The notes under the pieces are model-generated. The model ran no database searches and was not told the DNA's origin. It saw only the letters and a program-made list of their open reading frames with translations. The translations under genes were made by a program, and so were the position numbers. 64,000 nt of DNA from Siphonodentalium dalli (lineage: Eukaryota; Mollusca; Scaphopoda; Gadilida; Siphonodentaliidae). Shown piece after piece: positions 38,841 through 57,451 of the stretch. The stretch lies in contig CP136068.1 of NCBI GenBank assembly GCA_032622095.1, forward strand, positions 125,989,989 through 126,053,988, given 5' to 3'. Numbering within the stretch: position 1 is the first letter of the stretch; each line of letters begins with the position of its first letter.

Positions 38841-38952
38841 CAAAAAAACGTTAAACTTTAGCAAAACATACCTTATTTCTTGATGTCGCCACCCAGGTCT
38901 AAGAAATACTCGGAAAATACTTTCCAACGATACCTCATCAAGTTGTCTGGGT

Positions 38953-38958
38953 GATATC
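38953..38958. repeat. Polinton target-site duplication, left
   Basis: GATATC directly abuts the element's terminal AGAAGAATAGGGGG and is repeated at the right end (55324-55329). Six base pairs is the standard Polinton duplication length. Confidence 0.85.
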
Positions 38959-40160
38959 AGAAGAATAGGGGGCTCGTTCGCGCCACATCTAAAAATAGAA
39001 TCTTTGGGTCTAAAATTGTTTGTACTAAAATATTCCCAAAATATCAAAACCCAAAAAAAAATTCAAAAATTCCAAAATTTATTTTTTCCAAAAAATTTCA
39101 AAAACCCTAAAATTAATTTTTTCCACAAAAAAATTCAAAACCCCCCAAATTTCAAAAAAAGAAAAAATTTCAAAACCCTCAAAATTATTTCTCTAAAAAA
39201 AAGTATAAATAAAAAATTTATAACGAGTTTTTTCGGTTTCTGATAATCTCGATATTAAAATATCGAATGTTAAATTATTTGCGCGTAATATCATTCGTTA
39301 TTTTTTTTGTTCAACCAATGTTTCAATGTATTTATTAATCGATGTTTAGAAATATCTTTATACCAATTATATGTGTATGGACAGTCGCTGTAATGTTGGA
39401 CATTGTGACCAACGGTATGAATGCATACATTCCAGTGTTTAACGGACGCAGTTCATATAATTGTCATACCTGAAAATAGACACCATTACTTTTTACATAA
39501 ATAATAAAGAGCGTTTATTCTTTACTTATCTCTATATGAAGTTATTGAGTATATGACAGGCGTGTATTTTCGTCAATTATTGGAAGTATTGAAATGTACT
39601 ATGTTGAATCCCTAACGGTCGAAAATTGTAAGGCGAAATTACAACCCCCCAGAATGAACTGTCATATTGAATGAATGATGATTTAATCTCAGCCATTTTT
39701 ACATGGAACATGAGCGATGTACACGCAATCACACACGCCACATTGGTGTTAACAATGTCGTGTGTCACACCTTTGCTTTACCAAATGAATTCTATTATTT
39801 CCCCGGTCACAGCTATATGGTATTCAGAAAACATATCGATTTGAGCAGAAATAGTTGTTTAACGGGTTAGTATCAATTAAGGTTGATAAACTGTGTCATT
39901 CACACGATAATTAGTTAGCCAAAAACATGCATACATATTACGTCAGGTCGTGACACACTCAATTATACAAATTGCTTTGATGACATTGTTATAACAACAT
40001 TACGTAATAACCCCTTATCACTCCATTCACACTTACCACCATTTTGTATGCCGAAAACTACAGGTAGCACCGATGATGTAACATTATATCACTGCTATTG
40101 TACCAATGATAAATTCAGACATGTTCCATGTTTAGAAAAATAGATAATCTGCAGGTGTTC
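38959..40160 (+). repeat. Polinton left terminal inverted repeat
   Basis: Matches 54130-55323 in reverse from AGAAGAATAGGGGG to GATAATCTGCAGGTGTTC, with scattered substitutions and small indels; the largest difference is near 39845. The outer 250 bp hold short A-rich subrepeats (TTCAAAAATTCCAAAATTT type). One motif word lies at 39504-39516. A 63-codon reverse ORF at 39577-39768 is also present in the right copy, but this follows from the duplication and is no evidence for a gene. Confidence 0.93.
39504..39516 (-). promoter_or_regulatory. Motif ATAAAGAGCGTTT in the left TIR
   Basis: Exact copy of the dispersed word, mirrored in the right TIR at 54768-54780. Its role is unknown. Placement in both ends makes it a candidate site for an element-encoded protein. 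Confidence 0.4.
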
Positions 40161-40421: not shown

Positions 40422-41087
40422 ATGGGTCCAATTAACCATAGCTCCATACCATTTGAACCTTGTTCTAGTATTTGCATCACCGGACCAACTGGTTCTGGTA
40501 AGACGAGATGGGTCTACAGATTCCTGCAAAATCTTAATGGAATGTATTCTAGAGATCCACCTAAGAAAATAATGTACTGTTACGGTATTTATCAAAATTT
40601 CTATGATGAAATTGAATCATCAATCGAAAATTTGGTCATGCATCAAGGATTACCTACCCAAACAGAAATCGAAGAATTTGCTGACGGTAAACATAATATG
40701 TTAATATTAGACGACTTGATGCATCGCATTATTGACCAAAAAGAGATTGAAACACTATTTACGCAGCAAACTCATCATCGCTGTCTTTCGGTGCTGTTTA
40801 TTTCACAAAATTTATACGCACAAGGCAAGGCTGCGAGAACTATAGCCTTAAACACAGGATATCTAATTTTATTCAAAAATTTGAGGGATGGATCACAAAT
40901 TTCCACATTGGGTAGACAATTGTATCCCGGTAAATCTAAAGTACTCATTGAGGCATACAAGGATTGTATGAAGAAACCATTTGCGTATCTTATAATAGAT
41001 ATGTCCCCTCACACTGAGGATAAATACAGGCTACGAACAGACGTGTTTCGCAACCAAGACCCTATAATTTACGTACCTACTACGTAA
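40422..41087 (+). CDS. Polinton packaging ATPase (FtsK/HerA superfamily)
   Basis: A 221-residue P-loop ATPase that would pump element DNA into the capsid. Walker A GPTGSGKT is at residues 21-28, close to the N-terminus as usual for this family. Walker B MLILDD is at 93-98, followed by a polar sensor-like stretch (LFISQN). The length is typical of Polinton ATPases. It is the first gene of the rightward block, so it may be transcribed from the TATA-like site just upstream. The start at 40422 is the first ATG and leaves only ten residues before the nucleotide-binding core. The next gene starts 40 bp after its stop. Confidence 0.92.
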   Translation: MGPINHSSIPFEPCSSICITGPTGSGKTRWVYRFLQNLNGMYSRDPPKKIMYCYGIYQNFYDEIESSIENLVMHQGLPTQTEIEEFADGKHNMLILDDLMHRIIDQKEIETLFTQQTHHRCLSVLFISQNLYAQGKAARTIALNTGYLILFKNLRDGSQISTLGRQLYPGKSKVLIEAYKDCMKKPFAYLIIDMSPHTEDKYRLRTDVFRNQDPIIYVPTT

Positions 41088-41451: not shown

Positions 41452-41819
41452 TGGAGTCTGTGAAGAAAACTGTTTTGATCCCGTATGAAAGATATATGAG
41501 GTACACTGAAAAAAGTGAACACAAAAAAGTTTCATCGGAGTCTAACATTGAACACAGCGACATCTCGGCAAACAATAGTAGCCATTCCAATGAAATGGAT
41601 AAAGAAATGGACCCGATGAATAATCAGATTGTTAATACAGTTCAAACGACTGAACCTCAGGATGCAATCCAAAAATCAGAAGTTAACACATCGAAAAAGA
41701 CACGTACCAAGCGAAGAAAAAAGAAAATAAGAGGGGTTAAGCGTGAAATATCTAGACCTCCTGGTATAATCGCCGGTAAGCTGACCAAGATAAAGAAGAA
41801 ACGTTGGCTATCACTGTGA
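41451..41819 (+). CDS. Polinton protein with basic C-terminus, unknown function
   Basis: A 122-residue protein. The N-terminus (KTVLIPYERYMRY) is compact, the middle (residues 25-75) is polar and probably disordered, and the C-terminus (residues 80-122) is strongly basic (KKTRTKRRKKKIRGVKR) and ends KKKRWLSL. The true start is the ATG at 41451; a GTG at 41448 in the same frame is not needed. A DNA-binding or virion-core function is plausible from charge alone. It sits between the previous basic protein and the integrase. Confidence 0.6.
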   Translation: MESVKKTVLIPYERYMRYTEKSEHKKVSSESNIEHSDISANNSSHSNEMDKEMDPMNNQIVNTVQTTEPQDAIQKSEVNTSKKTRTKRRKKKIRGVKREISRPPGIIAGKLTKIKKKRWLSL

Positions 41820-41824
41820 ACAAT

Positions 41825-42934
41825 ATGGCCGATTGGAAAGATTATTTGAGTTCAATTTATTTTAATCCGGGTCACCCCGCATCGTACTCAGGAGCTACAA
41901 AGTTGCATCAGACTGTAAAATCTGAAAATAAGCACAACATTTCCAAGCGCGAGATTGTGACGTGGCTACAAAATCATGAAAGTTATTCCCTGACAAAAAG
42001 TGTTAGACGAAAATTCCCGGGGTCTCGTGTTATTGTAAACGCTTCTGACAGTCAATGGGATGGAGACCTCATGGATATGAATGATGTTTCCAAAGACAAC
42101 GACAATTACACCTACGTGTTAGTAATGATTGACATTTTTTCTAGGAAGTTATGGTGTGAAGCTATAAAGAGGAAAACTGCAATTAATGCGATCAATGCTA
42201 TGAAACATATATTTGAAGGTGGAAGAACCCCGCGCGTCCTCCGAACGGATCGCGGTTCGGAGTTCACAAACAAACGGGTCAAAAGTTACCTAAAGGGTCT
42301 TCATATATCTCAAATTTTTACTCAAAACGAAATGAAAGCCAATTATTCGGAACGGGTCATAAAAACTATAAAGCAGAAGATTTCGCGTTATATGATAAAG
42401 CATAATAATGCTAGATATATCGACATTCTACAAGATATTGTGAAAAGTTATAACCATACAATACATCGTTCGTTAGGCACCACCCCTGACTCCATAACTG
42501 TTGAGAATGAAGATGAGTCTCGTCTCGATCAGTGGTTAATAAGACAGAAGGGAGGTGTTAAAAGTAAATTGAAGAAAAAGTTCAAATACAATGTAAATGA
42601 TATCGTTAGAATATCACACACCAAAGCAGTTTTTGACCGAGAATATTCTCAGAAATGGACTGGAGAGTTGTTCAAAGTGACTAAGAGGTTTTACAGGCAG
42701 AACATACCCTTGTATACATTGACAGATTTCTTGGATGAAAACATTGAGGGTGCTTTCTACGAGTCAGAACTTCAAGGGGTGCGCGTTGATGACGAAACAG
42801 TTTACAGAATAGATAAAATTGTCAAAAAGAGGAAACGAAAGGGTCAAACTGAAGTCCTGGTGCACTGGCATTCATGGCCTGACAAATTTAATTCATGGAT
42901 TTTAGAGTCTGATGTCGACAGATATCAAAATTAA
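41825..42934 (+). CDS. Polinton integrase (retroviral-type DDE, chromodomain)
   Basis: It catalyses insertion of the element, making the 6-bp target duplication. With the ATG at 41825 it has 369 residues. The DDE core is complete: Asp81 (WDGDLMDM), Asp142 (RTDRGSEF) and Glu176 (NYSERVIKTIK). The first 75 residues form the family's usual N-terminal region (YSGATKLHQTVK, then YSLTKSVRRKF). The C-terminus (about 326-369) is a chromodomain-like fold (VLVHWHSWPDKFNSWI), as in chromo-integrases that read histone marks. An in-frame ATG at 41804 would overlap the previous gene by 16 bp; 41825 fits the gene spacing and the N-terminal motif better. Confidence 0.93.
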   Translation: MADWKDYLSSIYFNPGHPASYSGATKLHQTVKSENKHNISKREIVTWLQNHESYSLTKSVRRKFPGSRVIVNASDSQWDGDLMDMNDVSKDNDNYTYVLVMIDIFSRKLWCEAIKRKTAINAINAMKHIFEGGRTPRVLRTDRGSEFTNKRVKSYLKGLHISQIFTQNEMKANYSERVIKTIKQKISRYMIKHNNARYIDILQDIVKSYNHTIHRSLGTTPDSITVENEDESRLDQWLIRQKGGVKSKLKKKFKYNVNDIVRISHTKAVFDREYSQKWTGELFKVTKRFYRQNIPLYTLTDFLDENIEGAFYESELQGVRVDDETVYRIDKIVKKRKRKGQTEVLVHWHSWPDKFNSWILESDVDRYQN

Positions 42935-42973: not shown

Positions 42974-43414
42974 ATGAATAATAGAACAGATACCTTGACG
43001 AATATGTTTCAAACAGAACGCGGTCGTCTACATATGAATCTCCTTAAATGGATAGGAATTACGATTATGGTAATAACTCTGTCACTACCGGTTATAATAG
43101 TTCCAAAGAAGATACCACGTCAGACGGGGGACTATGAATTACGGCATACGAACGAGTCACGCCCCCATGATTACGAACAACACCCCTGTGGGTTCGTGAA
43201 AAAGTGGACAATACGATCAAACATTACTGTTACATTATGTAATAATCAAGGGCGCATTTATACACGCATTAGGCGAGTTGTGAATAACACTCCCGCGATT
43301 ATAAGTATTCCGTATAACCAGTGGTCTGCCTTCAAGTATATATTCAGTGATGTTGATAAAACTATAAGAGAAGAGATGAACATTGATTCTCATTTGAAAC
43401 AAAATAGAAACTAG
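42974..43414 (+). CDS. Membrane protein with PC4-like C-terminal region
   Basis: A 146-residue protein. Residues 25-44 form one clear transmembrane helix (WIGITIMVITLSLPVIIV). Residues about 80-131 (ITVTLCNNQGRIYTRIR ... ISIPYNQW ... FSDVDKTI) follow the pattern of the PC4/p15 single-stranded-DNA-binding fold: a GxxxxxIR strand, an IS(L)xxxQW strand-turn, then a helix ending in D/ID. The GK.GISL glycines of true PC4 are missing, so the match is weaker than in 46755-47408. It lies between integrase and minor capsid protein. Whether it is a virion membrane protein or a membrane-tethered nucleic-acid binder cannot be told from sequence. Confidence 0.55.
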   Translation: MNNRTDTLTNMFQTERGRLHMNLLKWIGITIMVITLSLPVIIVPKKIPRQTGDYELRHTNESRPHDYEQHPCGFVKKWTIRSNITVTLCNNQGRIYTRIRRVVNNTPAIISIPYNQWSAFKYIFSDVDKTIREEMNIDSHLKQNRN

Positions 43415-43418
43415 TCAT

Positions 43419-43859
43419 ATGGATAATTATTATCTGTACCTGACTAGCGACGATTCCATAGATAAATATCCAGATAATCGTCCTCTCGACTTCACAATAG
43501 AGTTACCTGGTGTATTAATATTGGAAGGGGCGTGGTTATGTTGTTTGAAAGACATAAACATAACTGACCATATAGACACGGATTTATTATATATTTGTTC
43601 GGACATATGTGGAGAATCAATAGCCTGCGACACATCATACCCCATCCTCCGGGTTATAAAGAGAGACACACGTGATACGGGTCATTGGCGGAGTTTTGAG
43701 GACTCATTCTACATAAACGTAAGACAGGATAAACTTCAGCGTCTCAGGATTTTTATAAGAGGCGATAAACTTTCTAAAATAAATGCAGAAAAAAGAGTGA
43801 CCTGTACACTACATCTGAAGAAGAAACATGTCGATCACGTATATTCCAGCCGATATTGA
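43419..43859 (+). CDS. Polinton minor capsid (penton-type) protein
   Basis: A 146-residue protein starting MDNYYLYLTSDDSIDKYPDN and continuing LDFTIELPGVLILEGAWLCCLKDI. This N-terminal pattern (short lead, YLTS.DS, PDN, DFT..LP) is characteristic of Polinton minor capsid proteins, a single jelly-roll predicted to form the pentons. The start lies 4 bp after the preceding stop, and the last 32 bp overlap the next gene. It is just upstream of the major capsid gene, the usual arrangement. Confidence 0.82.
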   Translation: MDNYYLYLTSDDSIDKYPDNRPLDFTIELPGVLILEGAWLCCLKDINITDHIDTDLLYICSDICGESIACDTSYPILRVIKRDTRDTGHWRSFEDSFYINVRQDKLQRLRIFIRGDKLSKINAEKRVTCTLHLKKKHVDHVYSSRY

Positions 43860-44163
43860 AATGTGGCGAAAACATTTCAGGAACATGATTAATGGGAAGT
43901 TAACGCCAGATAATGAGGGTCGCTACTTTATTGACAAAACTCAAAATAGCGATAGTGAAGAAGAAGAAGACGTTCTAAAACCACATATTAACGTAGTGAC
44001 ACCCATAGCGCAAGCTATTGAAATGGCCAAAGCAGAAGTTGCAGAAAATAAGTTGACACAAGCACGTAAGACGTCAAAAAAAAACAATAAGAGGGTGTTA
44101 CCTAACGATTTGGCTCATAACCCTAAGAAAGTGAAAACCAGCACCTGGTGGGATAAACCATGA
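43828..44163 (+). CDS. Small conserved-type Polinton protein, acidic centre and basic tail
   Basis: A 111-residue protein overlapping the minor capsid gene by 32 bp and the major capsid gene by 4 bp (ATGA). The centre has SDSEEEED, then a VVTPIAQAIEMAKAEVAE segment that I associate with a small protein next to the capsid genes in other invertebrate Polintons. The tail is basic (KTSKKNNKRVLP) and ends TSTWWDKP. The function is unknown; a scaffold or capsid-associated role is suggested only by position. Confidence 0.6.
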   Translation: MSITYIPADIEMWRKHFRNMINGKLTPDNEGRYFIDKTQNSDSEEEEDVLKPHINVVTPIAQAIEMAKAEVAENKLTQARKTSKKNNKRVLPNDLAHNPKKVKTSTWWDKP

Positions 44164-45422
44164 ATGAATACAGAGAGTACCATACCTCTAAATTGGCATT
44201 ATTTGAATCGCCCCCGGTTGACAGCGGAATACAAGCGACAGAATGGATAAACTACAGACCCGTGAATCAGCTGACAGACACTGCAGCTTTAGAGTTCAAT
44301 ATTCCCGCCATGGCCACAACCTACATGGACCTCAAACGGACATTGCTACTTCTCAAACTCAAAATAACCAAGCAAGATGGTTCGGCTCTAACCGTTAATG
44401 ACGATGTGGGTCTGATAAATGCACCCCTACATTCAATATTTTCGCAGGTCGATTTGAATATACAGCAAGTTCCCGTGAGTCAAGTCGGTCCGAATTATCC
44501 ATACAAAGCATATTTCGATGTACTCTTAGAAACTGAACGTAAGGAACAGCTACATGGACAAGCGTTCGAAAAGGACACGGCAGGTGGTATGGACCTGGCA
44601 GATTCGAAAAGCGGGAACTCTGGCCTGTATTACAGGTCCAAAACAACCCGTACTAGTCAAATAATGGATATTATGGGATCAATTCAGCTTGACTTCTTCC
44701 AACAGGACAAATTACTACTAAATGGTCTCCCGCTCACGTTAAAATTCTGGCAGACGAGAGATGTTTTTAGACTGATGTATGCGGGAACCACTGAGACATA
44801 CAAGTTGAAAATACAGGAAGCTAATTTGAGACTAGCCACTGTGAAAGTTAACCCCGGTGTATTACTCAGTCATACTGAGTCACTCAAGAAAAATAACGCG
44901 TGTTATCCTTTTTCAAAATCTATCATAAAGACGTATACAGTGTCAAAAGGTGCATTCAGTTTGGGAGAAGATAATCTATTTCAAGGAAACGTACCCAGTA
45001 GCTGTATTATTGGCTTAGTATCATCAAAGGCTGAAAGCGGTTCACGCGATAAGAACCCGTTCAACTTTGCGACTTTTGGATGCAACTTCGTCGGATTTTA
45101 CGTCAACGGGCAGTCTATGCCCGCCCAAGCACTCCAACCGAACTTTACCAGTAAGGAATATGTAGAAGCTTACAATACGATAATAAAAGATGCGAAACGA
45201 AAAGCCGTTCATATTACTTATGAGGATTATGCGAAAGGTTATTGCATATATCGGATAAACCCGCAAGGAATTAATCACGACAGGATCATACCACACAAAG
45301 GTCATACCCGCCTCGAGATTATATTCTCATCGGCTTTGAAAGACAATTGTACTGTAATCGTATACGCAAAATTTCCTGCCGTTCTCAAAGTTGACGAGAG
45401 TCGTAAAGTTTGCATTGAATAA
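44160..45422 (+). CDS. Polinton major capsid protein (double jelly-roll)
   Basis: A 420-residue protein with the two-part beta-rich layout of double-jelly-roll major capsid proteins. Early landmarks are DSGIQATEWINYRPVNQL and TYMDLKRTLLLLKLKIT. The first jelly-roll includes FSQVDLNIQQVPVSQVGPNYPYKAY (about 99-123). A long middle region contains LLLNGLPLTLKFWQTRDVFRL (about 195-215). A second beta-rich half ends with a strand near VIVYAKFPAVLKVDE. The length is close to the family's usual 400-650. It would form the icosahedral shell. It follows in an ATGA overlap and precedes the protease in a TAATG overlap. No intron or break is seen. Confidence 0.88.
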   Translation: MNEYREYHTSKLALFESPPVDSGIQATEWINYRPVNQLTDTAALEFNIPAMATTYMDLKRTLLLLKLKITKQDGSALTVNDDVGLINAPLHSIFSQVDLNIQQVPVSQVGPNYPYKAYFDVLLETERKEQLHGQAFEKDTAGGMDLADSKSGNSGLYYRSKTTRTSQIMDIMGSIQLDFFQQDKLLLNGLPLTLKFWQTRDVFRLMYAGTTETYKLKIQEANLRLATVKVNPGVLLSHTESLKKNNACYPFSKSIIKTYTVSKGAFSLGEDNLFQGNVPSSCIIGLVSSKAESGSRDKNPFNFATFGCNFVGFYVNGQSMPAQALQPNFTSKEYVEAYNTIIKDAKRKAVHITYEDYAKGYCIYRINPQGINHDRIIPHKGHTRLEIIFSSALKDNCTVIVYAKFPAVLKVDESRKVCIE

Positions 45423-45868
45423 TGAATACACGCGGACTCATGAGGGCGATAAATAGTTTCACAAACCATAATGAGATAGCTGTTTGTCCCATAGACAAAT
45501 TACCTCTTTATATCCAATATCCCCGGATGTATATAGTTAACACAGACGAGAGTAGCCAACCTGGACGCCACTGGATATTGATGACATTCCAGGAACATAA
45601 CGTATCAGAGTTCTTCGACCCTATGGGATTAAAACCCGAGTGTTACAACGGACGATTTAAACACGTGTTGTTATTGAATGGACCTCGTTACGAGTGCAAT
45701 GCTTACAGATTACAGGGTTCTAATATATGTGGTCCCTATTGCATATACTTTGCATTCTATAAACTGTGCGGATACAGTCTAGAAAATATAATGAGACGTT
45801 TCAGTGCCAATAATTATATGTATAATGATTTAATTATTAAGGATTTTATGTTGAAATATATTCTGTAA
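45422..45868 (+). CDS. Polinton adenain-like cysteine protease
   Basis: A 148-residue maturation protease of the C5/Ulp1-like fold, which would process virion proteins. The catalytic set is visible in order: His50 (GRHWILM), Asp66 (EFFDPMG), Gln98 (LQGSN) and Cys103 (ICGPYC). The length is typical. Its ATG shares a base with the major capsid stop (TAATG). The stop TAA at 45866-45868 runs straight into a near-copy of the dispersed motif (AAACGCTCTTCATT). It is the last gene of the rightward block. Confidence 0.92.
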   Translation: MNTRGLMRAINSFTNHNEIAVCPIDKLPLYIQYPRMYIVNTDESSQPGRHWILMTFQEHNVSEFFDPMGLKPECYNGRFKHVLLLNGPRYECNAYRLQGSNICGPYCIYFAFYKLCGYSLENIMRRFSANNYMYNDLIIKDFMLKYIL

Positions 45869-46218: not shown

Positions 46219-46743
46219 TTATTCTGAAAGTAATTCAAGTTCACATATGGTAGGATATACAATATTTAACATCTGCTTTTCACTTTTAATGCCCGTAATC
46301 ACAATTTTTCCATTATGAAAGCATGTAAAATGTATTTTCTCACGTCTGAACATTGCCGCAGGGAACAGCTCTAATTCGTAAGAACATTCCATAAGTTTCA
46401 CTAAAATGTTTAAGTCAAGTTTTCCATTTAACTGACAAAATGCAGACATTGTCAAAATTTTTATGGAATTTAATCTCACTCGCCAACCACATTTTTGAAT
46501 ATGTCGAGCGTACCGACGCAATCGAACTCGTGTCTGTTTGACACTATCAGAAAGCCCGTTAACAACGATTTTACCCGTGTTAAACACGAGGCAACATCCA
46601 CCGAATTTAGAATGTTTCCATACAACTCCGCTAAACTTTTTGGAATTGTATTCAATGTTCGAACAGCCGAGTGTCAAATCCCTTAGATTAATAGAACAGT
46701 TCAAATCTGCAGAACATACGACATTAGTTATTCGTAGCATCAT
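46219..46743 (-). CDS. TATA-binding-protein (TBP) homologue encoded by the Polinton
   Basis: A 174-residue protein spanning the whole two-repeat TBP core with no N-terminal extension. The first repeat opens ITNVVCSADLNCSINLRDL and continues NIEYNSKKFSG..., LVFNTGKIVVNG and RRYARHIQK. The second has YELELFPAAMFRR, CFHNGKIVITGIKSE and ending VYPTICEL. All four DNA-intercalating Phe positions of TBP are kept: Phe37, Phe54, Phe127 and Phe142. Asn7 matches the first-repeat minor-groove Asn; the equivalent second-repeat position reads Thr98. It would bind promoter DNA and could recruit host TFIIB and polymerase to element genes (inference). The start follows the double-PC4 gene by 11 bp on the same strand, and an in-frame stop lies just upstream, so the gene is complete. 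AATAAA overlaps its stop. Confidence 0.88.
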   Translation of the reverse strand: MMLRITNVVCSADLNCSINLRDLTLGCSNIEYNSKKFSGVVWKHSKFGGCCLVFNTGKIVVNGLSDSVKQTRVRLRRYARHIQKCGWRVRLNSIKILTMSAFCQLNGKLDLNILVKLMECSYELELFPAAMFRREKIHFTCFHNGKIVITGIKSEKQMLNIVYPTICELELLSE

Positions 46744-46754
46744 AGGAGTAATGT

Positions 46755-47408
46755 TTAGATCAATGTCTGCATCCGGTTAATCAAACACGTTCTATCGCCG
46801 TTGGGGCAGCATTCCATACATCTTAAAGATCCTTCCTGGTTTTGGTGATCGTCGGTCAAATAGCACTGCACAGTCTGATCAATTTCAGGAATATTAGCAC
46901 ACAGGACGAATATAGCTCCAACTAGTTCTTCAAATTGGTCGAATGTCAGAGATATTCCGTATTTGGTTGCACACAAATCATCTGAATGTTCAGGCAGCCA
47001 ATACCTGCGAATGTCAACACGCGGGATGCCGCTCTTTATCGTAATGAAGAAATTCCCTCCGATATGACGTCTCATGAATACATCGTCTTCACCGGTACGA
47101 TAACTGACCACTTCTTGATGTATATCTGCTAAGTAAGATTTCAACTCTTTGAATCTCCTTAGATTTAATGTTATTCCAGATTTTGTCGGAAATTTATGGC
47201 CCGCAGAACTTTCACCGCACTCTCGTATGTGTATATACAGATTTCCCTGGAATCGGCCGTCAAATAGGAAAATGTCATTTCCTAACGGGGCCAAGCATTG
47301 TGGATGGAACGCCCTCTCGTTGGTTTCAGTCCGTTGGTTTCCTTCAACATCGGGTTGATCAGTCAGTGTTTTTTTATTTTGAACCTGGAAAATAAGAAAA
47401 CAAAACAT
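46755..47408 (-). CDS. Double PC4-like (p15) domain protein
   Basis: A 217-residue frame with two PC4-type single-stranded-DNA-binding domains. Domain 1 is about residues 45-100 (GRFQGNLYIHIRE, then FPTKSGITLNLRRFKEL). Domain 2 is about 114-180 (IGGNFFITIKSG, VDIRRYW, then TKYGISLTFDQFEEL and ANIPEID). PC4 is a general transcription coactivator that works with TBP/TFIIA, and related proteins bind ssDNA in replication. The C-terminus has four Cys (197, 200, 201, 208) that could bind metal. The first eight codons resemble a splice acceptor (TTTTCTTATTTTCCAG before 47384), so the true N-terminus may be a separate exon. It lies directly upstream of the TBP gene on the same strand, which suggests a transcription module. 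Confidence 0.78.
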   Translation of the reverse strand: MFCFLIFQVQNKKTLTDQPDVEGNQRTETNERAFHPQCLAPLGNDIFLFDGRFQGNLYIHIRECGESSAGHKFPTKSGITLNLRRFKELKSYLADIHQEVVSYRTGEDDVFMRRHIGGNFFITIKSGIPRVDIRRYWLPEHSDDLCATKYGISLTFDQFEELVGAIFVLCANIPEIDQTVQCYLTDDHQNQEGSLRCMECCPNGDRTCLINRMQTLI

Positions 47409-47479: not shown

Positions 47480-47686
47480 TGTGGGGGAGGCCCGCCCCCG
47501 CCCGCCCCGCCCGCCCTGGGGAGGGGGAGGCCCGCCCGCCCCGCCCGCCCGCCCGCCCTGGGGAGGGGAGGCCCGCCCGCCCGCCCGCCCCGCCCCCGCC
47601 CGCCCTGGGGAGGGGAGCCCCGCCCCCGCCCTGTCGCCCTGGGGGGAGGGGGGAGGCCCGCCCCCTCCCCCGCCCGCATACTCAAT
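47480..47686. repeat. GC-rich minisatellite in a divergent promoter position
   Basis: About four units of roughly 45-50 bp built on CCCGCCCGCCCTGGGGAGGGG. The tract is almost pure G/C in an AT-rich element and lies between the divergent PC4-like (-) and F-box-like (+) genes. ORFs crossing it in several frames encode Pro/Ala/Gly/Arg strings and are artefacts of stop-free composition. Confidence 0.85.
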
Positions 47687-47722: not shown

Positions 47723-48283
47723 ATGGAGAGAATACTACCCGCAGAAATACTGGAGAAAATATACAATCAGCTAATTGAAATGTCAACTATAAATCCAGAA
47801 ATAAAAAAACAACTACTACACAATTGGTTTATAAGAGAAATTAAAATAATACTGAAGAATATAGATGAAGGATATTTTCCTGTACAACGATTGAAATCTT
47901 TGATTGAGAGGTCTGAATTTGAAACTGATTTCTTACAAGATATATTGAATCAAATGTATTCAAATCGCTGGGTATTTAGAGGCGTTCCTAAAAACAAAAT
48001 ACATGACATTCGTGAACTTATTGGAGATAACTTTGTGAGATTTGCAGAATACCGAGACTGGGTTTTCAATCAGAGAAGTTTTGAAGAAGTGACAATAATT
48101 CATGGATATATCATTCTCCGTGAACCGGGTACACTGTTCACGATTGAACAAATACTTAACAGCGGCGTGATTTTGGATTACATTTCTACAAGTAAATCGA
48201 AATATATTTCAGAATTAGAGAATGAATTAATCTGGTCATTCGGAATAATCTGGAATTATGGTGACTCTTCGTTGAGAAAATAA
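47723..48283 (+). CDS. Unknown Polinton protein with F-box-like N-terminus
   Basis: A 186-residue protein read from the ATG at 47723. The same frame is open upstream through the GC-rich repeats, but that part is a compositional artefact. Residues 2-15 (ERILPAEILEKIYNQL) resemble the opening LPxEIlxxI of an F-box, which links proteins to SCF ubiquitin ligases. The second half of an F-box is not convincing. The rest is Ile/Glu/Lys-rich and probably mostly helical, with FRGVPKNKIHDIRELIGDNF near the middle. I do not recognise it as a standard Polinton gene. It stands alone on the plus strand between the PC4-like and polymerase genes. The AT-rich codons match the rest of the element. Confidence 0.55.
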   Translation: MERILPAEILEKIYNQLIEMSTINPEIKKQLLHNWFIREIKIILKNIDEGYFPVQRLKSLIERSEFETDFLQDILNQMYSNRWVFRGVPKNKIHDIRELIGDNFVRFAEYRDWVFNQRSFEEVTIIHGYIILREPGTLFTIEQILNSGVILDYISTSKSKYISELENELIWSFGIIWNYGDSSLRK

Positions 48284-48670
48284 AAAAAAAAATAGTTGTT
48301 TTTGGTTTAAGTATAAACCAAAAATGAGATTGTACTGGAGGTAAAAATGTAATGATAGAAATCATAATTCATAACTAACCTGTATAGAATATTTCACACG
48401 CACAGTATAGGACTACCGAATTTGTAATTGTGAATTGGATCGGGTAGCATTTTATAGATCGAAAAAATGGACACCTTGGATAAATTGACCAATGACGGCC
48501 ATACGTTTATAGTAATACGTGTTCATACACGCTCGATGTTATCTAACATCGAACGTGTTTGAACGAGTCTTAGTATAATCCGATAACTACCATCGATCGA
48601 ATATTTACACTCTCATTACAACCTTGATCAAATATAGACGATTAAATTATATATATATTACGTACCTCGT
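48284..48670. other. Convergent intergenic region with a hairpin
   Basis: It lies between the F-box-like gene (+) and the polymerase stop (-). A hairpin at 48527-48558 has 15-bp arms (ACACGCTCGATGTTA / TAACATCGAACGTGT, one mismatch) and a 2-nt loop. It could act at mRNA 3' ends; no other feature is seen. Confidence 0.5.
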
Positions 48671-51481
48671 TCAATATCCATATGGCAGTGTATCCATGTT
48701 ATCCAATCGTCTGCGTTTGGTATAAACAACTCGGTACTGTTTGTCCTCAGATCTGTTATATATCTTTCTTTTTCCTTTCGATCTGCATATTTTCCTTGGA
48801 TTGGTTGTGGTGATGGGCACTGTGCTTCCAGATTCTAACAGCTCTTTAATCGTCTGGAAATTGATGAACTGTGAATTTTCAAAGTTCAAAGAGAACCCCC
48901 GAACTTTACACGTCTCTTTAGCTTTATTTGTTCGATAAGCGTAATTCTTGGGGCCTCCAGAAACAAATTCTTCGATGTATTCGTCCGGATCTAGCTCGCT
49001 GGTGAGTTGGCCCAAATAGTCGCCCAGTGGGGGATTAATTTGATCCTCAGTGCTGCTAAATACACAACTATCCGTGTCGTAATATAATACTCTTCTGTCC
49101 AAGGAATGAATAACTTCATATAGCATTAATCGAGCGTGACACGTCGTGAATGTGGCCAAATATATGTTATTCGCTGCTCCACAAGGCACACAGTCTTTTC
49201 GATAGGTCCACTCCATTTGAAGCATGTCATCAGTTATGACATGAAAATTTTCCATTTGTTTCATTGGATTTGAAATCAGCTGGAATAGATTGTCTTGTTC
49301 CGATTCATGGAAATACTCGGTCTGCTTGAAATTCTGGTTTTGGCCTAACTTCCCCCAAAATGAGTTGAGCATGAGCTTGCTGATTTGCCTCAGTCCTGGA
49401 TTCTTTTCGATGCTTTCTCTGTCCAGTAATATACCTTCGTTGTCTTTATACGATGTCATGTATTTATCCATGTCTTCGTTAGATTTTATCCAATCCGGAG
49501 GACCGCTAGCCTGCTGCTTGAACTTTAGGAATGTGTTTATATATTCCGTGAATAATCCATTTTGTTGGCTATAGTCTGACGTTTCGGTCCAATGGTATAT
49601 TTCATATATTTTGAGAATCTTGTATCCCACTTTGACAGCTGTCTCCAGTTCAGGAATACACCAAACGCCGGTAATGGCTCTCTGTTGGCACGTACACGTG
49701 CAAGGTCGTTGATTTTCATTATCAGCACAAGTCCTGCACAGTGGAAACTTCAGTTTACCTTCGGATCGATACGGTAATACGGGGTGATAGAGTCCATTAG
49801 GTGGTAAAATCTTGACTTGCGCTATTCCGAAGTAATCCTTAAGCTCGGTAATGTCATCGCCCAAAATGATTTTAGGGTGTCCAATCGGATAGCGAGAGTA
49901 TTTGAGCACACTTGGATACAGCGACGTGAAATCAAAATAGTGTATTTTCTCACCAGCGGCAGCTTTGTAGTGTAATTTAGTTGCATTCGTTCTGCCGCCG
50001 AAGAAACTGTCTCTAGGCTCTAGCCGCTCAACAATGTCTAAACTAGCGATGAAGTCACGAAGCTCCGGATTAGTCTCGTGTTCCCAAATGCACACATATT
50101 TCATGCCTCGACTTTCTATAAACTTCTTCTTTTTCTGTGTGAGTCCGTATAATTCATTAGGTGTCTGGTTGGTTATCGGATTCTTGACTATGTCTCTATC
50201 GTGACTCAGACAAAGTTCACATCCATGGAATTGACAGCCGTGAAATTCGAATGCCGTGTTTAATTCTTCGCAATAGCCATCCAATCTGTATTTTGCATCA
50301 TCGAGTTTCTTTTCACGGCCGTTCAATGCGTGAGTTATGTGAACTTTGTCTTTGAACATCATCCATTCCAGCCATTGAATAGAACTTTTGCTGTATTGAT
50401 CTTTATACGATGTCTTGGGGATTCGAGCTATCTGGGATTTGAGAAATTCTTTCTCACGAATTTGGACGCCGCGTTCATCTTGAAGTTTTGTGTCTTGAAC
50501 CCATTCACCTTTGTATAAAATAGACAAGGTTCCATCTTTACATTTAGCAGGAAGCCACGTTTTCCCTTCAGTACTTAGACGCACTCTCCATTCCTCGTCG
50601 ACGAATTTCGTTCTGAATATACCCATACATACCGATGCGATTGTAACGTATTGGAATGGATCAACCGCACCGACCAGTTTGAACTTCATATCGCCAGAAA
50701 ACTCGTCAATTACGGGTTGTATATTTCCAGTCGCATTCATGATGTGGGTTCTGAATTTTATGCAAGCTTGTCTCAAAATATTGACATCACTACGACAATA
50801 ATCCGATAATTCTTTCTTGAAGATGAAAACTGCATTTGTTTGAGCAGCGTGCCATTTCGTGAAGTCTTTTCGTTCAGCCACACTCATATAATCAGCGCCG
50901 TAATATTTGGCATCCGGATAGGGTCCTTCATAATTCTGGTTGGCTGATTTATTGAAAAAGTGCGGGAACCATCCTTTTTTCTCGCCATCAAGACCGAAAG
51001 TTTTCGGTAACAGTGCCAGCTTCATTGGTAGAAAGCTGAGACTGTCCAGTACTTTTATATGAAGATCTTTTTCCACGTATAGGTACATCAATTTGGATCC
51101 ATTATATATAACTTTGGGTCTCAAGGATTGATCAATGAGATATTCCATGAGAAAATATCCAAAGTAACCCTTGAAGTTGTGAGCCAGTGCTATGAACCCT
51201 TTGTGTTGTTCCGAGAATAACCATTTTCCAAACTTTTCACCGGTATCAGGACCGCTAAATATAACCTCTCGGAGTCCGCATGTATCCGAACATAAATTTC
51301 GATCACTCTTCTTTTTCTTCTTCTTGTCATCACTGTCGATACACGCATCACATAGAGGTCCGCAATTTTTACAGTTCGGTTTCACTTCCAACGATTCATG
51401 CATGCATTCGTAGCAAGCTGTTTGGGCGACGAGGAAGTTCGGTGTATGCTGGACTTTTCCGCACCATGTTTTTAAACAGTT
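48671..51481 (-). CDS. Polinton DNA polymerase B, exon 2 (catalytic part)
   Basis: This exon carries 936 codons of a 1517-residue protein-primed family B polymerase (numbering spliced). The acceptor is ATTACTTTTCAG before 51481; the first ATG of the frame (51403) is internal. Exo II is HNFKGYFGYF (688 at the Phe where Asp is expected). Exo III is YCRSDVNIL (Asp813). A VSR/restriction-like segment with YRLDGY and FEFHGCQFHGC spans about 977-1052. Motif A is DFTSLYPSV (Asp1098). A Cys-rich stretch lies near 1164-1180. Motif B is KLMLNSFWGKLG (1283-1294). Motif C is YYDTDS (Asp1383, Asp1385). The end, TLPYGY, is the usual Polinton polymerase terminus. It replicates the element from a protein primer, as known for the family. 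Confidence 0.94.
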   Translation of the reverse strand, partial: NCLKTWCGKVQHTPNFLVAQTACYECMHESLEVKPNCKNCGPLCDACIDSDDKKKKKKSDRNLCSDTCGLREVIFSGPDTGEKFGKWLFSEQHKGFIALAHNFKGYFGYFLMEYLIDQSLRPKVIYNGSKLMYLYVEKDLHIKVLDSLSFLPMKLALLPKTFGLDGEKKGWFPHFFNKSANQNYEGPYPDAKYYGADYMSVAERKDFTKWHAAQTNAVFIFKKELSDYCRSDVNILRQACIKFRTHIMNATGNIQPVIDEFSGDMKFKLVGAVDPFQYVTIASVCMGIFRTKFVDEEWRVRLSTEGKTWLPAKCKDGTLSILYKGEWVQDTKLQDERGVQIREKEFLKSQIARIPKTSYKDQYSKSSIQWLEWMMFKDKVHITHALNGREKKLDDAKYRLDGYCEELNTAFEFHGCQFHGCELCLSHDRDIVKNPITNQTPNELYGLTQKKKKFIESRGMKYVCIWEHETNPELRDFIASLDIVERLEPRDSFFGGRTNATKLHYKAAAGEKIHYFDFTSLYPSVLKYSRYPIGHPKIILGDDITELKDYFGIAQVKILPPNGLYHPVLPYRSEGKLKFPLCRTCADNENQRPCTCTCQQRAITGVWCIPELETAVKVGYKILKIYEIYHWTETSDYSQQNGLFTEYINTFLKFKQQASGPPDWIKSNEDMDKYMTSYKDNEGILLDRESIEKNPGLRQISKLMLNSFWGKLGQNQNFKQTEYFHESEQDNLFQLISNPMKQMENFHVITDDMLQMEWTYRKDCVPCGAANNIYLATFTTCHARLMLYEVIHSLDRRVLYYDTDSCVFSSTEDQINPPLGDYLGQLTSELDPDEYIEEFVSGGPKNYAYRTNKAKETCKVRGFSLNFENSQFINFQTIKELLESGSTVPITTTNPRKICRSKGKRKIYNRSEDKQYRVVYTKRRRLDNMDTLPYGY

Positions 51482-52141
51482 CTGAAAAGTAATAATTGAA
51501 CGTTTTAACCTCTAGCTTTATCGATAATAAAAAACAAAATAAAACGTCTACACTTTGTTTAAATAATTATTTTTTAAAAAAAATTTAAAAAAAAAGGTTT
51601 TGGTATAGGTTCAACGTTAATAAAGAGCGTTGACGTATTACTATTGTTCGTTGGTTGATCCTAAAAAATTACTCGTTCCAATCTACGTGTCAATATTATA
51701 AATGTATATCATGATCCGACATATAGCCTGTATAATTGTCGATTCAAGCACGCAGCTATCAAGTTCAATAAAGTTAAAACAATTATATATTACGTTAGTT
51801 TACTATATAACAATTACAAATCTCTTTTCACAAAAAAAATATGCTACACATTTTCAATGTGTCAAGAATTAAAAAAGTTAATTACTCGATTTAACATCTG
51901 TGACTCAGTTGAATTTTAATATTGAGACCCTTAACTTTGGTCGAATTCAAGTATGTAATTGTTATATGGTAATATAACACGCGAGGTAACAGCTAAAAGA
52001 GCGTTCAGCGATAATCTAATTTAAAAAAAATGAAAGAGCGTCTCTACTTATGCGCGCCTTTAATAAAGAGCGTTACGTTATCGTGATTTCGACTGTAATG
52101 TGTTACATATATATATATATTACAATTAGGTTAAGACTCAC
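51482..52141 (-). other. Polymerase B intron (660 bp, phase 0)
   Basis: Donor CAG/GTGAGT at 52141-52136 and acceptor TTACTTTTCAG ending at 51482, on the minus strand. Removing it joins KKCAKCQ to NCLKTWCGK without changing frame, continuing a Cys-rich zinc-finger-like segment. Without splicing the exon 1 frame stops 12 codons later. The intron is AT-rich and holds two exact and two near copies of the dispersed motif. Confidence 0.85.
51619..52075 (-). promoter_or_regulatory. Four motif words inside the polymerase intron
   Basis: AATAAAGAGCGTTG at 51619, AAAAGAGCGTTC at about 51996, GAAAGAGCGTCT at about 52032 and ATAAAGAGCGTTA at 52063. Two are exact over TAAAGAGCG and two have one mismatch. 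All have the same orientation. They could be a regulatory cluster; the function is unknown. Confidence 0.4.
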
Positions 52142-53884
52142 CTGACACTTAGCACATTTCTTGCATATATGATCCTCTTTACAGTCCTGGCAATCCTTTG
52201 TATGTAAAGGTGCATATCCTTCAGAACATTCCAATATATCATGTTGAATGGTTTCGAAGTCGAAGAAACAGAATTTAGCTCTTTCATCATCAGTAACGGG
52301 AGGTATGGCCCTCACATAGCATTCGTGTGGTCCCATTGTGTATTTGTCACACGATCTACAAAATGTTTCTCCGCACACGTGTTGATTCGGACGTCTTTTC
52401 CGTCTCTCCATGACTTTTGTACAGTCCAAGCATTTCCACCATTTTTGACAAGGCGCTGTAGTTTCTCCCGAAGCTTGATTAATAGGTTTTGCTTTATGAC
52501 GCACGAAACATTGATGAGACATACACGTCATATTACAATCTGAACAATGTTCTTTGTTTTCACTTTGTTCACATTTATCGCTTTTGCACACGAAACAGGT
52601 GTGTTCACAATAATGCTTTCCTTTGGTTGAATAATGTTTTAAACAATGCACACAGAAATATGCATCGCTAAAGAATCCCGTTATGGATTGTATAGCGTGG
52701 AAATGTTCATTAGCAGTGAGATATAAATATATCACGGGTCTTTCTATACCGTCTGTAGGCGCGCTGGTAATGAATTTATTACCCAGTCTAGCACTGATGA
52801 CTAGTATTGTCAAATTCAGAGTTTCCTCGAATGCTTTTAGATCTGCTAAACTGGCCGGTCTGTCTGTTGATACACCTGCGATGACACTAATTGCTTTGGC
52901 TAATTTTCCTTGCTCCGTACGTTTTTTGTTCCTCATATGTTTGTAATAATTGCTCGGTACTTTTCTGTATTCCATGATGAGTTGTAAATTATTTCTGGTT
53001 CCTCTATTCTGTGTTATTTCCAGCCATTCATCAGGACTGCAAATATTTAATTTACACCAACATGTGGCGATAGCCCGTGCCATACACATATTGTCGGTGT
53101 TTTCAATCGTAACGATCGATGTTTTATTTCTTAGATTGTTACTTTCATCATGTAAAGCCGTTATCCTCCTCCGTGCTCCGCCTTTAGGTAACTCGATGGT
53201 GCCTATATCTATGTGGAAACTTTGATTGACAGTCAGTGTTTGATTACTGTTCAAAACGAGTTCGATTCTGTCAATCACAGTGTTAGCATTTAACGTTTGC
53301 AACGTTTGTAACGGAACTATAATAGGGTTGTCCAAACTTTCATGGTGAATGATAACTCTGCCAAGATCATTGTCAGCCAAATTTCCACGAGCTCTTTGAA
53401 TAGTGTCCTCGAACATTGAATGCAGATTCCTGTATATGTCGATTAACTTTTTCTCTTTGTAAATTTCATCTAATTTGATCTCATATGTTCTCTGTGTTGC
53501 CAAATTGTTTCCGAAGATTCGTTCACTCCTTTTGCGAATGCTATATCCAGTTATTTGAATATCAGAACTGTCGGCTGTTTGATTGTCTGATTTTACGGCT
53601 TCATCTTGATGAGGTGTATGTTCGTCTTCTCGGTTTTGTAATCCTGATGGTCCAGCTGTACCGGGTTGTGAGTTGTTAACATCATTTTTAGGCGCATCAT
53701 CTTCTCCGTATCCGATTTGGTTCGGCCATGGATCATCTCCTGAACAAAGCGTAGATGCTTCAATTATATCTTCATCCAGTTGATAAGCTACGATAGCCTT
53801 GTCGTATTCTTCGATGTCTTGCAGAATACATTCTATTTCATAAATTTCATCCACTGTTAGAGATGTCATTATTTCTTCAGCCAT
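52142..53884 (-). CDS. Polinton DNA polymerase B, exon 1
   Basis: This exon encodes residues 1-581, from the ATG at 53884 to the donor after 52142. The first 130 residues are acidic and probably disordered. A region at about 255-400 has DNMCMARA (Asp264, Cys267) and EHFHAI (His394, His396). It resembles the Cys/His pair of OTU-type peptidases seen at the N-terminus of some invertebrate Polinton polymerases (inference). Residues 411-522 are Cys/His-rich with several CxxC pairs (CVHC, CFVC, CSDC, CLDC), likely zinc-binding. Exo I follows as FFDFETIQ (Asp542, Glu544). The gene starts 246 bp from the right TIR. Confidence 0.92.
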
Positions 53885-54129
53885 TTTTCGAGAAGTCCTG
53901 AGTAGTGATTACAGCGGCGTATATTCACTATATGGAATACAGCTTAGTAAGCTATATTTTTATACCATAAAATCCCGAACATATGCAAGCACGGATTACG
54001 TAACATTATATAAGATTATATATATATGAACGTAATGTATGAATAGGCCGATAATTGGTTTTGTACGGACGAGGCAACATTAGTTGTTTAACTGGTTATT
54101 ATTACGTAACCCTGTGTTCCCCCCGCTGA
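53885..54129 (-). promoter_or_regulatory. Polymerase B upstream region
   Basis: A 245-bp unique segment between the polymerase start and the right TIR. On the minus strand TTCATATATATATAATC at about 54017-54030 is a TATA-like candidate about 135 bp upstream of the ATG. No motif word occurs in this segment. Confidence 0.3.
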
Positions 54130-55323
54130 GAACACCTGCAGATTATCTATTTTTCTAAACATGGAACATGTCTGAACCTATAATTGGTACAATAGCAGTG
54201 ATATAATGTTACATCGTCGGTGCTACCTGGAGTTTTCGGCATACAAAATGGTCGTAAGTGTGAATGGAGTGATAAGGGGTTATTACGTAATGTTGTTATA
54301 ACAATGTCATCAAAGCAATTTGCATAATTGAGTGTCTCACGACCTGACGTAATATGTATGCATGTTTTTGGCTAACTAATTATGGTGTGAATGACACAGT
54401 TTATCAACCTTAATTGATACTAACCCCGTTTGTTCTAACATTAAATCGATTTGTTTTCTGAATACCATATAGCTGTGACCGGGGAAATAATAGAATTCAT
54501 TTGGTAAAGCAAAGGTGTGAAAGACACATTGTTAACACCAATGTGGCGTGTGTGATTGAGTGTACATCGCTCATGTTCCATGTAAAAATGGCTGAGATTA
54601 AATCATCATTCATTCAATATGACAGTTCATTCTGGGGGGTTGTAATTTCGCCTTACAATTTTCGACCGTTAGGGATTCAACATAGTACATTTCAATACTT
54701 CCAATAATTGACGAAAATACACGCCTGTCATATACTCAATAACTTCATATAGAGATAAGTAAAGAATAAACGCTCTTTATTATTTATGTAAAAAGTAATG
54801 GTGTCTATTTTCAGGTATGACAATTATATGAACTGCGTCCGTTAAACACTGGAATGTATGCATTCATACCGTTGGTCACAATGTCCAACATTACAGCGAC
54901 TGTCCATACACATATAATTGGTATAAAGATATTTCTAAACATCGATTAATAAATACATTGAAACATTGGTTGAACAAAAAAATAACGAAAGATATTACGC
55001 GCAAATAATTTAACATTCGATATTTTAATATCGAGATTATCAGAAACCGAAAAAACTCGTTATAAATTTTTTATTTATACTTTTTTTTAGAGAAATAATT
55101 TTGAGGGTTTTGAAATTTTTTCTTTTTTGGAAATTTGGGGGTTTTGAATTTTTTTGTGGAAAAAATTAATTTTAGGGTTTTTGAAATTTTTTGGAAAAAA
55201 TAAATTTTGGAATTTTTGAAATTTTTTTTGGGTTTTGATATTTTGGGAATATTTTAGTACAAACAATTTTAGACCCAAAGATTCTATTTTTAGATGTGGC
55301 GCGAACGAGCCCCCTATTCTTCT
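54130..55323 (-). repeat. Polinton right terminal inverted repeat
   Basis: Reverse complement of 38959-40160, about 8 bp shorter because of small indels. It ends CCCCCTATTCTTCT at the GATATC duplication. The near-identity of the two ends argues for a fairly recent insertion or for copy-correction between ends. Confidence 0.93.
54768..54780 (+). promoter_or_regulatory. Motif AAACGCTCTTTAT in the right TIR
   Basis: Mirror of the left-TIR copy at 39504-39516, unchanged between the two ends. The role is unknown. Confidence 0.4.
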
Positions 55324-55329
55324 GATATC
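55324..55329. repeat. Polinton target-site duplication, right
   Basis: GATATC, identical to 38953-38958. The sequence is itself a palindrome, so it can be mistaken for part of the inverted repeat. Confidence 0.85.
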
Positions 55330-57451
55330 CTGGGTTAAAATTTCCAAATTCAGTGTTCATGTTCGAAATATGGCCTGGTGAATATAGTGACTGAGGAAAA
55401 ATGAATCGGTTATAATCACGAGTCGTCTAAATTGGATAGATCATCTCACTCGTGCTTCAGAATTAAGAAGGGTGATGTTAGTCTTGATTGGGAATTATTA
55501 AATCTACTCACTTGCGTTGCGCGCTCGCGAAGAGAATTAATATATTCCAACCAAGACTAACGCCACCCTACTTAGTTATAAATACAATCGTTGAGATTAT
55601 ATATCCAGTACTTAGTCATACAAGATAGTGGCAGCATTGTGCTGAGTAAATACCCCATAGAACATAGACCATAGGGCTAACACTCTACCTAGTTTATTTC
55701 AATAACAAATAATTGATTTACCGTACTTTCATGTACTTTCTAAAATTGCGGTACTGATAACCGTCATATATACATGTATGAACGTTACACCTTTCACAGA
55801 TCACTGTTCTGTAAAATGAAGAACCAACGTCATGTACATATACAGTCAGTTAGGTGTATAAAGTCAACACTGGTCCGTAATTTTTCGAAACAATGAGCTG
55901 GCAGATATTTTTCCAGCCCTTTGATCCGAAATATTGCAGAAACCCGTTAAACAATGTACTCACCAATCGACATTGCCGCGATGAGGTATAGTAGTTAAAT
56001 ATGTATTATATGTGTAATCCCCGCCAACTTACTCAATGTATAACCCATACTCCTCCTCTACATAACTGTATTACGATTAAACCCACATATCACCATACGA
56101 TGGGAAGCAGTTCTATTATATAGATCATGCATGGATTGTAGTGGTCAGAGAGGAGGAATAGTCCACGAGGAAGTTTCCACTCACGTTGACTCGAGTACCA
56201 CTATTTTGGCATAGTCACGACCAGACATGCAACATTTATTATATTATATAGAACATCGGTGTCAATTCTCACATAATTTCTGTGTCTGATTTTGTGACAT
56301 GTTATTTACCGTTTTCAGATTGTATAATATACGGCAATCTATATGATGACAGGGGAGCATAACTGTGTTATTAGTTAAATATAACAGAATATCTTCATGA
56401 TGCATTCATTTCTTTCTATAAATACGTCATTAGCAAACACTTTTTGGCGAAATTTCAGAAGTTAACTTGTTTATCTTCGACGAGAACGGCAAAGGAAATT
56501 ATAAATAACGTTCAATGGCATTACAAAATTAGGACTGTCCACTTTCCAACAATTAAATACATTGGATAGCTATGTTCGGATATTTGTAAGATCATTAAAA
56601 TTCGCCAATACGTCTAATGCTATAACGATATTGCAACAAGTATCGTACAATGTATAGATTCAGATCAGGCAATCCGATTGCGCGAACTGACTTTGTTACT
56701 ATAAATTGCAAAAGAATAATAGGCGAATAGGAATCTCACTTTGGGTACTATCGTAAAATAGCATAGCAGTGTACAGCCAATCAGAACGCGAGAAAGTCAC
56801 GTCACATACAATATTCATTAATAAATGACATGTAGTGAGCAGAATATATATTTCTAAAACTTTAAATTTAAATCAGGTATCGCTATTTGGTACATTATGT
56901 AGTTATTCCATGTACGTTCACTTTATTTGGTAAGAAACCGTATCGTGGAAAACAAAATAACCAACATATGTTTATACTGGATAAATGTTCTAGCTGTTTA
57001 ATACATCCAGTAGTGTGAAGATACACCATTGTTTTCGGAACATTTAATTTTGAGAGAAAGTTACCATGTTTACCAATGGTGATACGGCCATGTCGACGTT
57101 GCATCATGTATTATTCGAAAGAGATGCCGGTATATATACTTAAATTATTTAATATATAAAACACATTTTATGTCACAAAGTATATCACAGAACCACATAC
57201 ATGTACATGTAAAGTTACGAAGCATATCAACCCAAACAGGGTTTCGTTTCCCATAACAAGATCCACCGAGAGTCTCCATTACATGCTGTTCAGTGATTTC
57301 AGAAAGCGACAATGATCACAACTAAATTTTGACACATGAGAGAGATCGACCTCTCCCCTGTGTATAATGAAATCACCATTAAACTGACATAGCTCGTTAA
57401 AACCACAAAATTAAGTATACATAATTTGGTAATATATATCTCAAAACATAC
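55330..57451. other. No gene recognised
   Basis: Right flank of the Polinton. AT-rich with only short ORFs; none has a recognisable domain or splice context. Confidence 0.5.

Follow-up and report, generated by a model that had tools for sequence, protein, structure and literature searches.

The genome of the scaphopod Siphonodentalium dalli harbors a multi-copy family of Polintons, which encodes a complete TATA-binding protein (TBP) beside a protein of the PC4 type. General transcription factors are usually seen as a property of cells and large viruses. The copy described here is located in a stretch of 64,000 nucleotides, which is referred to as the window. In our favored reading, to which we assign a probability of roughly 0.55, the element produces a specialized, host-compatible TBP with altered DNA reading, which would place host TFIIB and RNA polymerase II (Pol II) on the promoters of the element. 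The presence of both genes suggests that the element has some control over the expression of its own genes while using the host machinery.

The element and its genes

Long terminal inverted repeats (TIRs) and a 6-bp target-site duplication (TSD) are hallmarks of Polinton/Maverick elements. The element has a size of 16,377 bp from TIR to TIR with a perfect 6-bp TSD outside, and comprises the following features:

38947..38952, no strand: left TSD, CTGGGT, identical to 55330-55335
38953..40160, + strand: left TIR, about 1.2 kb, 97.1% identical to 54130-55329 over 1210 columns
40422..41087, + strand: P-loop ATPase, probably of the packaging type (weak; AAA_22 1.8e-4 and Pox_A32 0.0032, both below the Pfam cut-off)
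41825..42934, + strand: retroviral-type integrase with chromodomain (Pfam over 41804-42934: rve 1.8e-14, Chromo 8.4e-8)
42974..43414, + strand: ORF with a hydrophobic stretch (TM ORF), present in 20/20 sampled copies
43419..43859, + strand: ORF, possible minor virion protein by resemblance, present in 20/20 sampled copies
44160..45422, + strand: putative major capsid protein (MCP), so named for its location and a resemblance; searches of Pfam, PHROG and PDB sequences gave no match; present in 20/20 sampled copies
45422..45868, + strand: adenain-like protease (PRO), weak (Pfam Peptidase_C5 20.0 bits, cut-off 21.3)
46219..46743, - strand: TBP, both lobes, 174 aa (Pfam, PDB sequence, AlphaFold2, Foldseek)
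46755..47408, - strand: PC4-domain protein with two PC4 stretches (Pfam PC4 4.1e-15; PDB PC4 chains, E 0.0038-0.01)
47723..48283, + strand: ORF, frame open from 47459 within GC-rich tandem repeats, present in 20/20 sampled copies
48671..51403, - strand: DNA polymerase B (PolB) of the viral/organellar type, C-terminal part (Pfam DNA_pol_B_2 6.6e-50)
51482..52141, - strand: probable GT-AG intron of the polymerase gene (signals CAG/GTGAGT and TTTTCAG/, by reading only)
52103..53884, - strand: probable N-terminal part of the polymerase, an ORF running into the probable intron (placement inferred; no Pfam match)
54130..55329, - strand: right TIR, 97.1% identical to the left TIR
55330..55335, no strand: right TSD, CTGGGT, identical to the left copy

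The 1.2-kb TIRs, the 6-bp TSD, the PolB (DNA_pol_B_2) and the rve integrase with its chromodomain resemble those of known Polinton/Maverick elements, and the ATPase- and adenain-like genes, which score below the Pfam cut-offs, may do so as well. A further Polinton trait, the double jelly-roll major capsid protein, has a putative counterpart in the 44160-45422 product. The element differs from known Polintons in that it carries genes for TBP and PC4. The TIRs (38953-40160 and 54130-55329, 97%) and the TSD CTGGGT flank the TBP gene, which agrees with the preliminary description of this gene as cargo of the element and not a neighbor. The PolB is probably of the protein-primed type. A broken polymerase gene is not supported, as the GT-AG signals point to an intron. 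The interval separating the PC4 gene from the 47723 ORF contains GC-rich tandem repeats (47490-47673), each unit being about 47 bp long.

The preliminary description overlooked the PC4-type gene beside TBP. Its ORF (46755-47408, -) is located directly upstream of the TBP gene and ends 11 nt short of the TBP ATG. A protein search for relatives of the PC4 product yielded 0 relatives among 22 candidates; the TBP-PC4 pairing is therefore demonstrated in this genome only. A 3' splice-site-like sequence at the start of the PC4 ORF suggests an unseen 5' exon. Further upstream, at 48375-48456 (-), TATAAAA is followed by the donor-like CAG/GTTAGT, and this region might serve as promoter and first exon for a transcript that spans PC4 and TBP.

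Identity and fold of the element TBP

The reverse-strand ORF 46743-46219(-) is open from ATG to stop and encodes 174 amino acids. A Pfam scan matched two segments of the product to TBP (E 3e-32; 110.7 bits, cut-off 22.9) and found no other family at E ≤1. In a PDB sequence search with E up to 10, each of the 35 distinct sequences found was a TBP chain or TBP fusion. The best match was 4wzs_D (E 1.5e-24), which is labeled ECU04_1440 protein and whose identical residues are labeled TATA-box-binding protein in 3eik. AlphaFold2, supplied with a 29-sequence alignment, produced a model with a mean pLDDT of 94.4 and a pTM of 0.83. When this predicted structure was compared with the PDB by Foldseek, ranks 1-44 were all structures of TBP or of complexes with TBP (best E 7.8e-18), the TM to the query reached 0.92, with DNA-bound human and Arabidopsis TBP at 0.91-0.92, and rank 45 was an unrelated synthetase (E 2e-4). 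This ranking rules out a non-TBP fold. Residues F37, F54, F127 and F142 align with those Phe residues of human TBP which we take to be the intercalating ones.

These results bear out the preliminary description of a full two-repeat TBP with Phe at positions 37, 54, 127 and 142, and no other fold was preferred in either the profile or the structure search. The window protein thus shows two repeats with the TBP fold (Pfam, Foldseek), all four intercalating Phe, and the TFIIB-contact Glu pair with its Leu (E123, E125 and L126). It lacks the N-V-T signature of both lobes and reads N-V-N/T-S-T instead; this is a sub-feature, and membership of the TBP family stands.

Copies in the genome and origin of the element TBP

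A TBP family search of the 2.23-Gb genome revealed at least 149 element-type TBP genes, present on 9 of 9 contigs, and one host TBP exon (L001, row 1 of the search table). These counts are lower bounds, because 150 of 600 candidates were scored. Sequence confirmed 44 of the 149 (the window copy, the 42 copies of the selection comparison and L049) and the rest were assigned by near-equal score. Stops within the matched lobe were seen in 2 of the 149 scored rows, and the copy in the last row, L049, has a frame break. The number 149 refers to TBP genes and not to elements, as some of them sit in tandem cassettes: a 2.7-kb cassette of TBP, PC4 and the 47723 ORF is arranged head to tail in three copies near C2:85.77 Mb (L034, L035 and L040) and in two copies near C2:195.21 Mb (L041 and L042).

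The gene neighborhood was sampled in 20 of the 149 rows, every seventh down the table, with 10 kb each. All 20 contain the TM ORF, the 43419 ORF, the capsid, protease, TBP and PC4 genes, the 47723 ORF and the polymerase in identical order and on identical strands, and coverage of the putative capsid gene ranges from 73 to 100%. The integrase is mostly partial and the ATPase uncovered in these stretches because the 10 kb end there. Since the sample was drawn via TBP matches, it represents TBP-bearing Polintons, and those without TBP are invisible to it. Within this genome, the gene therefore recurs in other Polintons, a question raised by the preliminary description.

That description had also named a recent host retrocopy found in one insertion as the finding that would overturn it. 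The 149 genes on 9 contigs and the Polinton gene order of all 20 sampled copies rule out a single insertion. The host exon L001 is canonical, with 92% identity to human TBP over 61 residues and a further exon downstream, and is 35% identical to lobe 1 of the element TBP over 57 residues, which rules out a recent retrocopy. Together with at least 120 relatives at E <1e-59 (see below), this identity of 35% argues that the element TBP is not a recent host capture. In a tree that took in only two cellular TBPs, these two grouped with the relative P0030 under a long-branch warning.

Relatives of the element TBP

A phmmer search with the element TBP found 30 relatives and a profile search 299 matches, of which the 120 matches listed all have E <1e-59; the remaining 179 may include ordinary cellular TBPs. 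Clusters among the matches listed hold up to 288 member sequences. Organism names are attached to five of the 120: the bivalve Pinctada imbricata and four bacterial assemblies, namely two of the Solemya velum gill symbiont, Candidatus Thiodiazotropha taylori and Sedimenticola. We infer that the bacterial assemblies hold DNA of their bivalve hosts. Scans of viral contigs with TBP queries, whose patterns reach close relatives only, and with capsid, polymerase and integrase queries found no relative, and a scan of genome contigs found no contig with relatives. For the analysis of single positions, an alignment (A4) was used that consists of 124 family members (the window protein and 123 relatives), human TBP and the E. 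cuniculi protein, with the partial sequences P0028 and P0031 left out. All 126 rows match Pfam TBP. The element TBP belongs to a large, distinct TBP clade.

Residues for DNA reading and partner contact

The N-V-T positions of both lobes are presumably the base-contact residues, and the cellular TBPs compared (human, E. cuniculi and chains 7z7n_D and 1vtl_E) read NVT/NVT. In lobe 1, family members have N7 in 124/124, V in 118/124 and N62 in 100/124, the last in place of the T of human and E. cuniculi. In lobe 2, T98 (121/124) and S100 (120/124) stand where human and E. cuniculi have N and V, and a T follows in 119/124. All six residues of N-V-N/T-S-T are common to 96 of the 124 members. The four Phe are all kept in 72/124, and at least one is missing in 52/124; the four positions are aromatic or His in 116/124, with His in place of F142 in 31. 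At the position of human E191, presumably a TFIIA contact, 87 of 124 members have Arg, and the window protein alone has Glu.

The residues facing TFIIB are largely retained. Positions 123 and 125 are both Glu in 106/124, the Glu-Glu-Leu combination is found in 97/124, and positions 76, 80 and 84 are jointly Lys or Arg in 92/124. According to the accessible text of PMC7221094, two Glu residues in the C-terminal lobe of TBP contact TFIIB; in viral TBPs, the same text states, the first Glu is conserved in about 40%, the basic patch of the N-terminal lobe is absent, and a viral TFIIB mostly accompanies the protein. The element-family TBPs keep the Glu pair and, as far as positions can be mapped, a large part of the basic helix. 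A Pfam scan of the 12 element ORFs with at least 120 aa gave no match to TFIIB, so that the element, over these 12 ORFs, differs from an orthogonal viral TBP-TFIIB system, in which TFIIB is encoded as well. The retained Glu residues and basic helix and the lack of TFIIB among the 12 ORFs are our main grounds for proposing that the element TBP works with host TFIIB.

Variation among copies

Forty-two copies were compared by counting their unique differences from the window copy; these copies are not independent, and the tandem cassette copies L034, L035, L040, L041 and L042 were counted separately. For each gene separately, copies with less than 90% coverage were excluded, which left 42 for TBP and PC4, 39 for PRO, 36 for MCP, 19 for the integrase part, 20 each for the TM ORF, the 43419 ORF and the PolB thirds, and 24 for the 47723 ORF. 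TBP has 6 synonymous, 26 missense and 0 nonsense changes, corresponding to a missense/synonymous per-site ratio of 1.26. The synonymous/missense/nonsense changes are 34/42/2 for MCP (ratio 0.37), 18/23/0 for PRO (0.32) and 22/25/1 for PC4 (0.33), and the ratios of the PolB thirds are 0.18, 0.19 and 0.31. Fisher tests of TBP against MCP, PRO and the PolB thirds gave uncorrected P values of 0.0002-0.027.

The neighboring genes show a signal of purifying selection; TBP lacks such a signal within this genome, mainly because it has few synonymous changes. Synonymous changes per site amount to 0.054 in TBP versus 0.12-0.21 in MCP, PRO, PC4 and the PolB thirds, and are also low in the integrase part (0.048) and the 47723 ORF (0.080), for which fewer copies were available. 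TBP may thus be relaxed, diversifying or recently homogenized in this genome. No nonsense change and no indel of frameshift length was found in 42/42 copies; about 1.8 nonsense changes would be expected, so that their absence is not significant. Missense changes prefer positions that are less conserved in the family (permutation P 0.036), which mildly indicates constraint. Copy variants on or adjoining the TFIIB contact are E123K (one copy) and L124S (four copies), and one copy has N62S.

Candidate promoter sites

The best TATAWAWR-like match within 150 nt upstream of each of 13 element ORFs was compared with random positions in the element, and no enrichment was found (mean best score 6.77 versus 6.57, P 0.22). 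A perfect TATATAAG is located near 40366, 55 nt before the ATPase ORF, and 54007-54034 is TATA-rich. One may speculate that, if the changes at the reading positions are of consequence, the preferred site of the element TBP need not be TATA. The palindrome TTACGTAA occurs at 40000, 41140, 53996, 54102 and 54283; these are five of its six matches in the window, and four of them are near the ends of the element.

Possible functions of the element TBP

The element protein is best seen as a probable specialized TBP paralogue. It would bend the DNA of element promoters via Phe intercalation, and the core sequence of these promoters would differ somewhat from the host optimum, because N-V-T/N-V-T became N-V-N/T-S-T. 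The retained Glu-Glu-Leu stirrup would recruit host TFIIB, as no TFIIB is recognized in the element, and through TFIIB host Pol II, so that the element would need no RNA polymerase of its own. PC4 may assist as a coactivator or single-strand DNA binder, and both proteins together could allow the element to favor its own genes, for instance the capsid genes after replication. The His at position 142 in 31 members, the 52 members without at least one Phe and the Arg at the E191 position in 87 argue against an unchanged host fit. Further points against this reading are the lack of TATA enrichment upstream of the element ORFs, the absence of a purifying signal from TBP within this genome, the stops and the frame break in a few copies, and the copy variants E123K, L124S and N62S. 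From the host-facing and DNA-contact residues, we infer that the element may control promoter recognition, as the preliminary description had proposed in its last clause. A broader version of this reading, which we hold tentatively and at less than even odds, is that the element family uses a promoter code of its own with host Pol II. Its TBP would combine a retained host-facing TFIIB surface with a re-specified DNA-reading surface (N-V-N/T-S-T) and have PC4 as its cofactor; some copies carry the cassette in tandem duplication, and the TBP lineage would be an ancient one that occurs in various animals including bivalves.

The lack of TATA enrichment upstream of the element ORFs would also suit a protein with a role in replication or architecture, which bends the DNA of the terminal repeats and, together with the PC4-type protein as a binder of single strands, serves replication or packaging and not promoter recognition. 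PC4 domains bind single-stranded DNA, the TBP-PC4 pair has the capsid-side genes on one side and the polymerase gene on the other, and TATA-rich and TTACGTAA sites are found near the element ends; however, the TFIIB-contact Glu residues, kept in 106/124, would be unneeded for such a role, which we consider unlikely. The same mostly retained host-factor residues, together with the changed DNA contacts, could instead point to a decoy, a competitor for host TFIIB, TFIIA or TAFs that reduces transcription in the host or weakens the silencing of the element, and the missense excess among copies could reflect the resulting conflict. This idea appears less likely again, as the lobe-1 Asn (124/124), the Val (118/124) and most Phe remain and DNA binding seems preserved.

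Some Polinton relatives depend on a helper, and the TBP might have been borrowed from a mirusvirus or giant-virus lineage to work with viral partners, perhaps those of a helper virus. The available parts of PMC10132985 and PMC11464507 give TBP in 59% of mirusvirus genomes versus 0% in the Nucleocytoviricota set and report TBP in a megavirus, respectively. However, the viral contigs scanned with TBP queries held no relative within the reach of these patterns, that is, close relatives, and the TFIIB Glu residues are kept, unlike in most viral TBPs as described in the accessible text of PMC7221094; we regard viral borrowing as improbable. The reading to which we give least weight is a passenger gene without a job that was amplified along with the element. 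The missense/synonymous ratio of 1.26 among copies in this genome would fit a passenger; against it stand the key residues, most of which are kept in 123 diverged relatives, the placement of missense changes at less conserved family positions (P 0.036) and the small number of stops or frame breaks. The favored reading of a host-compatible TBP with altered DNA reading would, if true, mean that promoter recognition has been captured and spread by transposons through the re-tuned TBP of a small element. It would further provide a natural test of the TBP residues that set core-promoter choice and a candidate mechanism by which Polintons time or boost their own genes.

Relation to known systems

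TRF1 and TRF2 are metazoan TBP-related factors, and a TBP paralogue with altered DNA preference and host partners would represent the same idea; unlike them, the element TBP is encoded by a mobile element. The TBPs of giant viruses, mirusviruses and poxviruses, as far as covered by the accessible text of PMC7221094 and PMC10132985, share with it that a virus-type genome encodes a two-lobe TBP. The element TBP differs from these viral proteins in its 16-kb carrier, in the presence of both TFIIB-contact Glu in 106/124 and in the absence of TFIIB from the 12 ORFs of at least 120 aa. The herpesvirus TBP mimic KSHV ORF24 likewise replaces TBP on host Pol II, according to the available part of PMC12529657, which presents ORF24 as a mimic with a noncanonical DNA-binding mode, whereas the element protein matches TBP in sequence and fold. 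At the level of titles and opening abstracts, no report of TBP or PC4 in a Polinton was found among the papers listed, which does not establish absence from print. The accessible portions of PMC10675990, PMC12220804, PMC13037468, PMC11464507, PMC10132985, PMC11071296 and PMC11071308 contain no TBP in a Polinton; that of PMC10675990 names TBPs among the genes of mirusvirus-linked elements.

Other repeats in the window

The sequence ACGCTCTTTA occurs at 30 sites in the window with at most one mismatch, compared with 2.9 expected (for example at 438, 18017, 26489 and 52064). Since 21 of the 30 sites are outside the element, an element-specific motif is ruled out, and ACGCTCTTTA is a dispersed repeat. 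Furthermore, two ORFs at 3662-5335 encode a DDE_Tnp_1_7 transposase (best E 6.6e-62), which we take to be of the piggyBac type.
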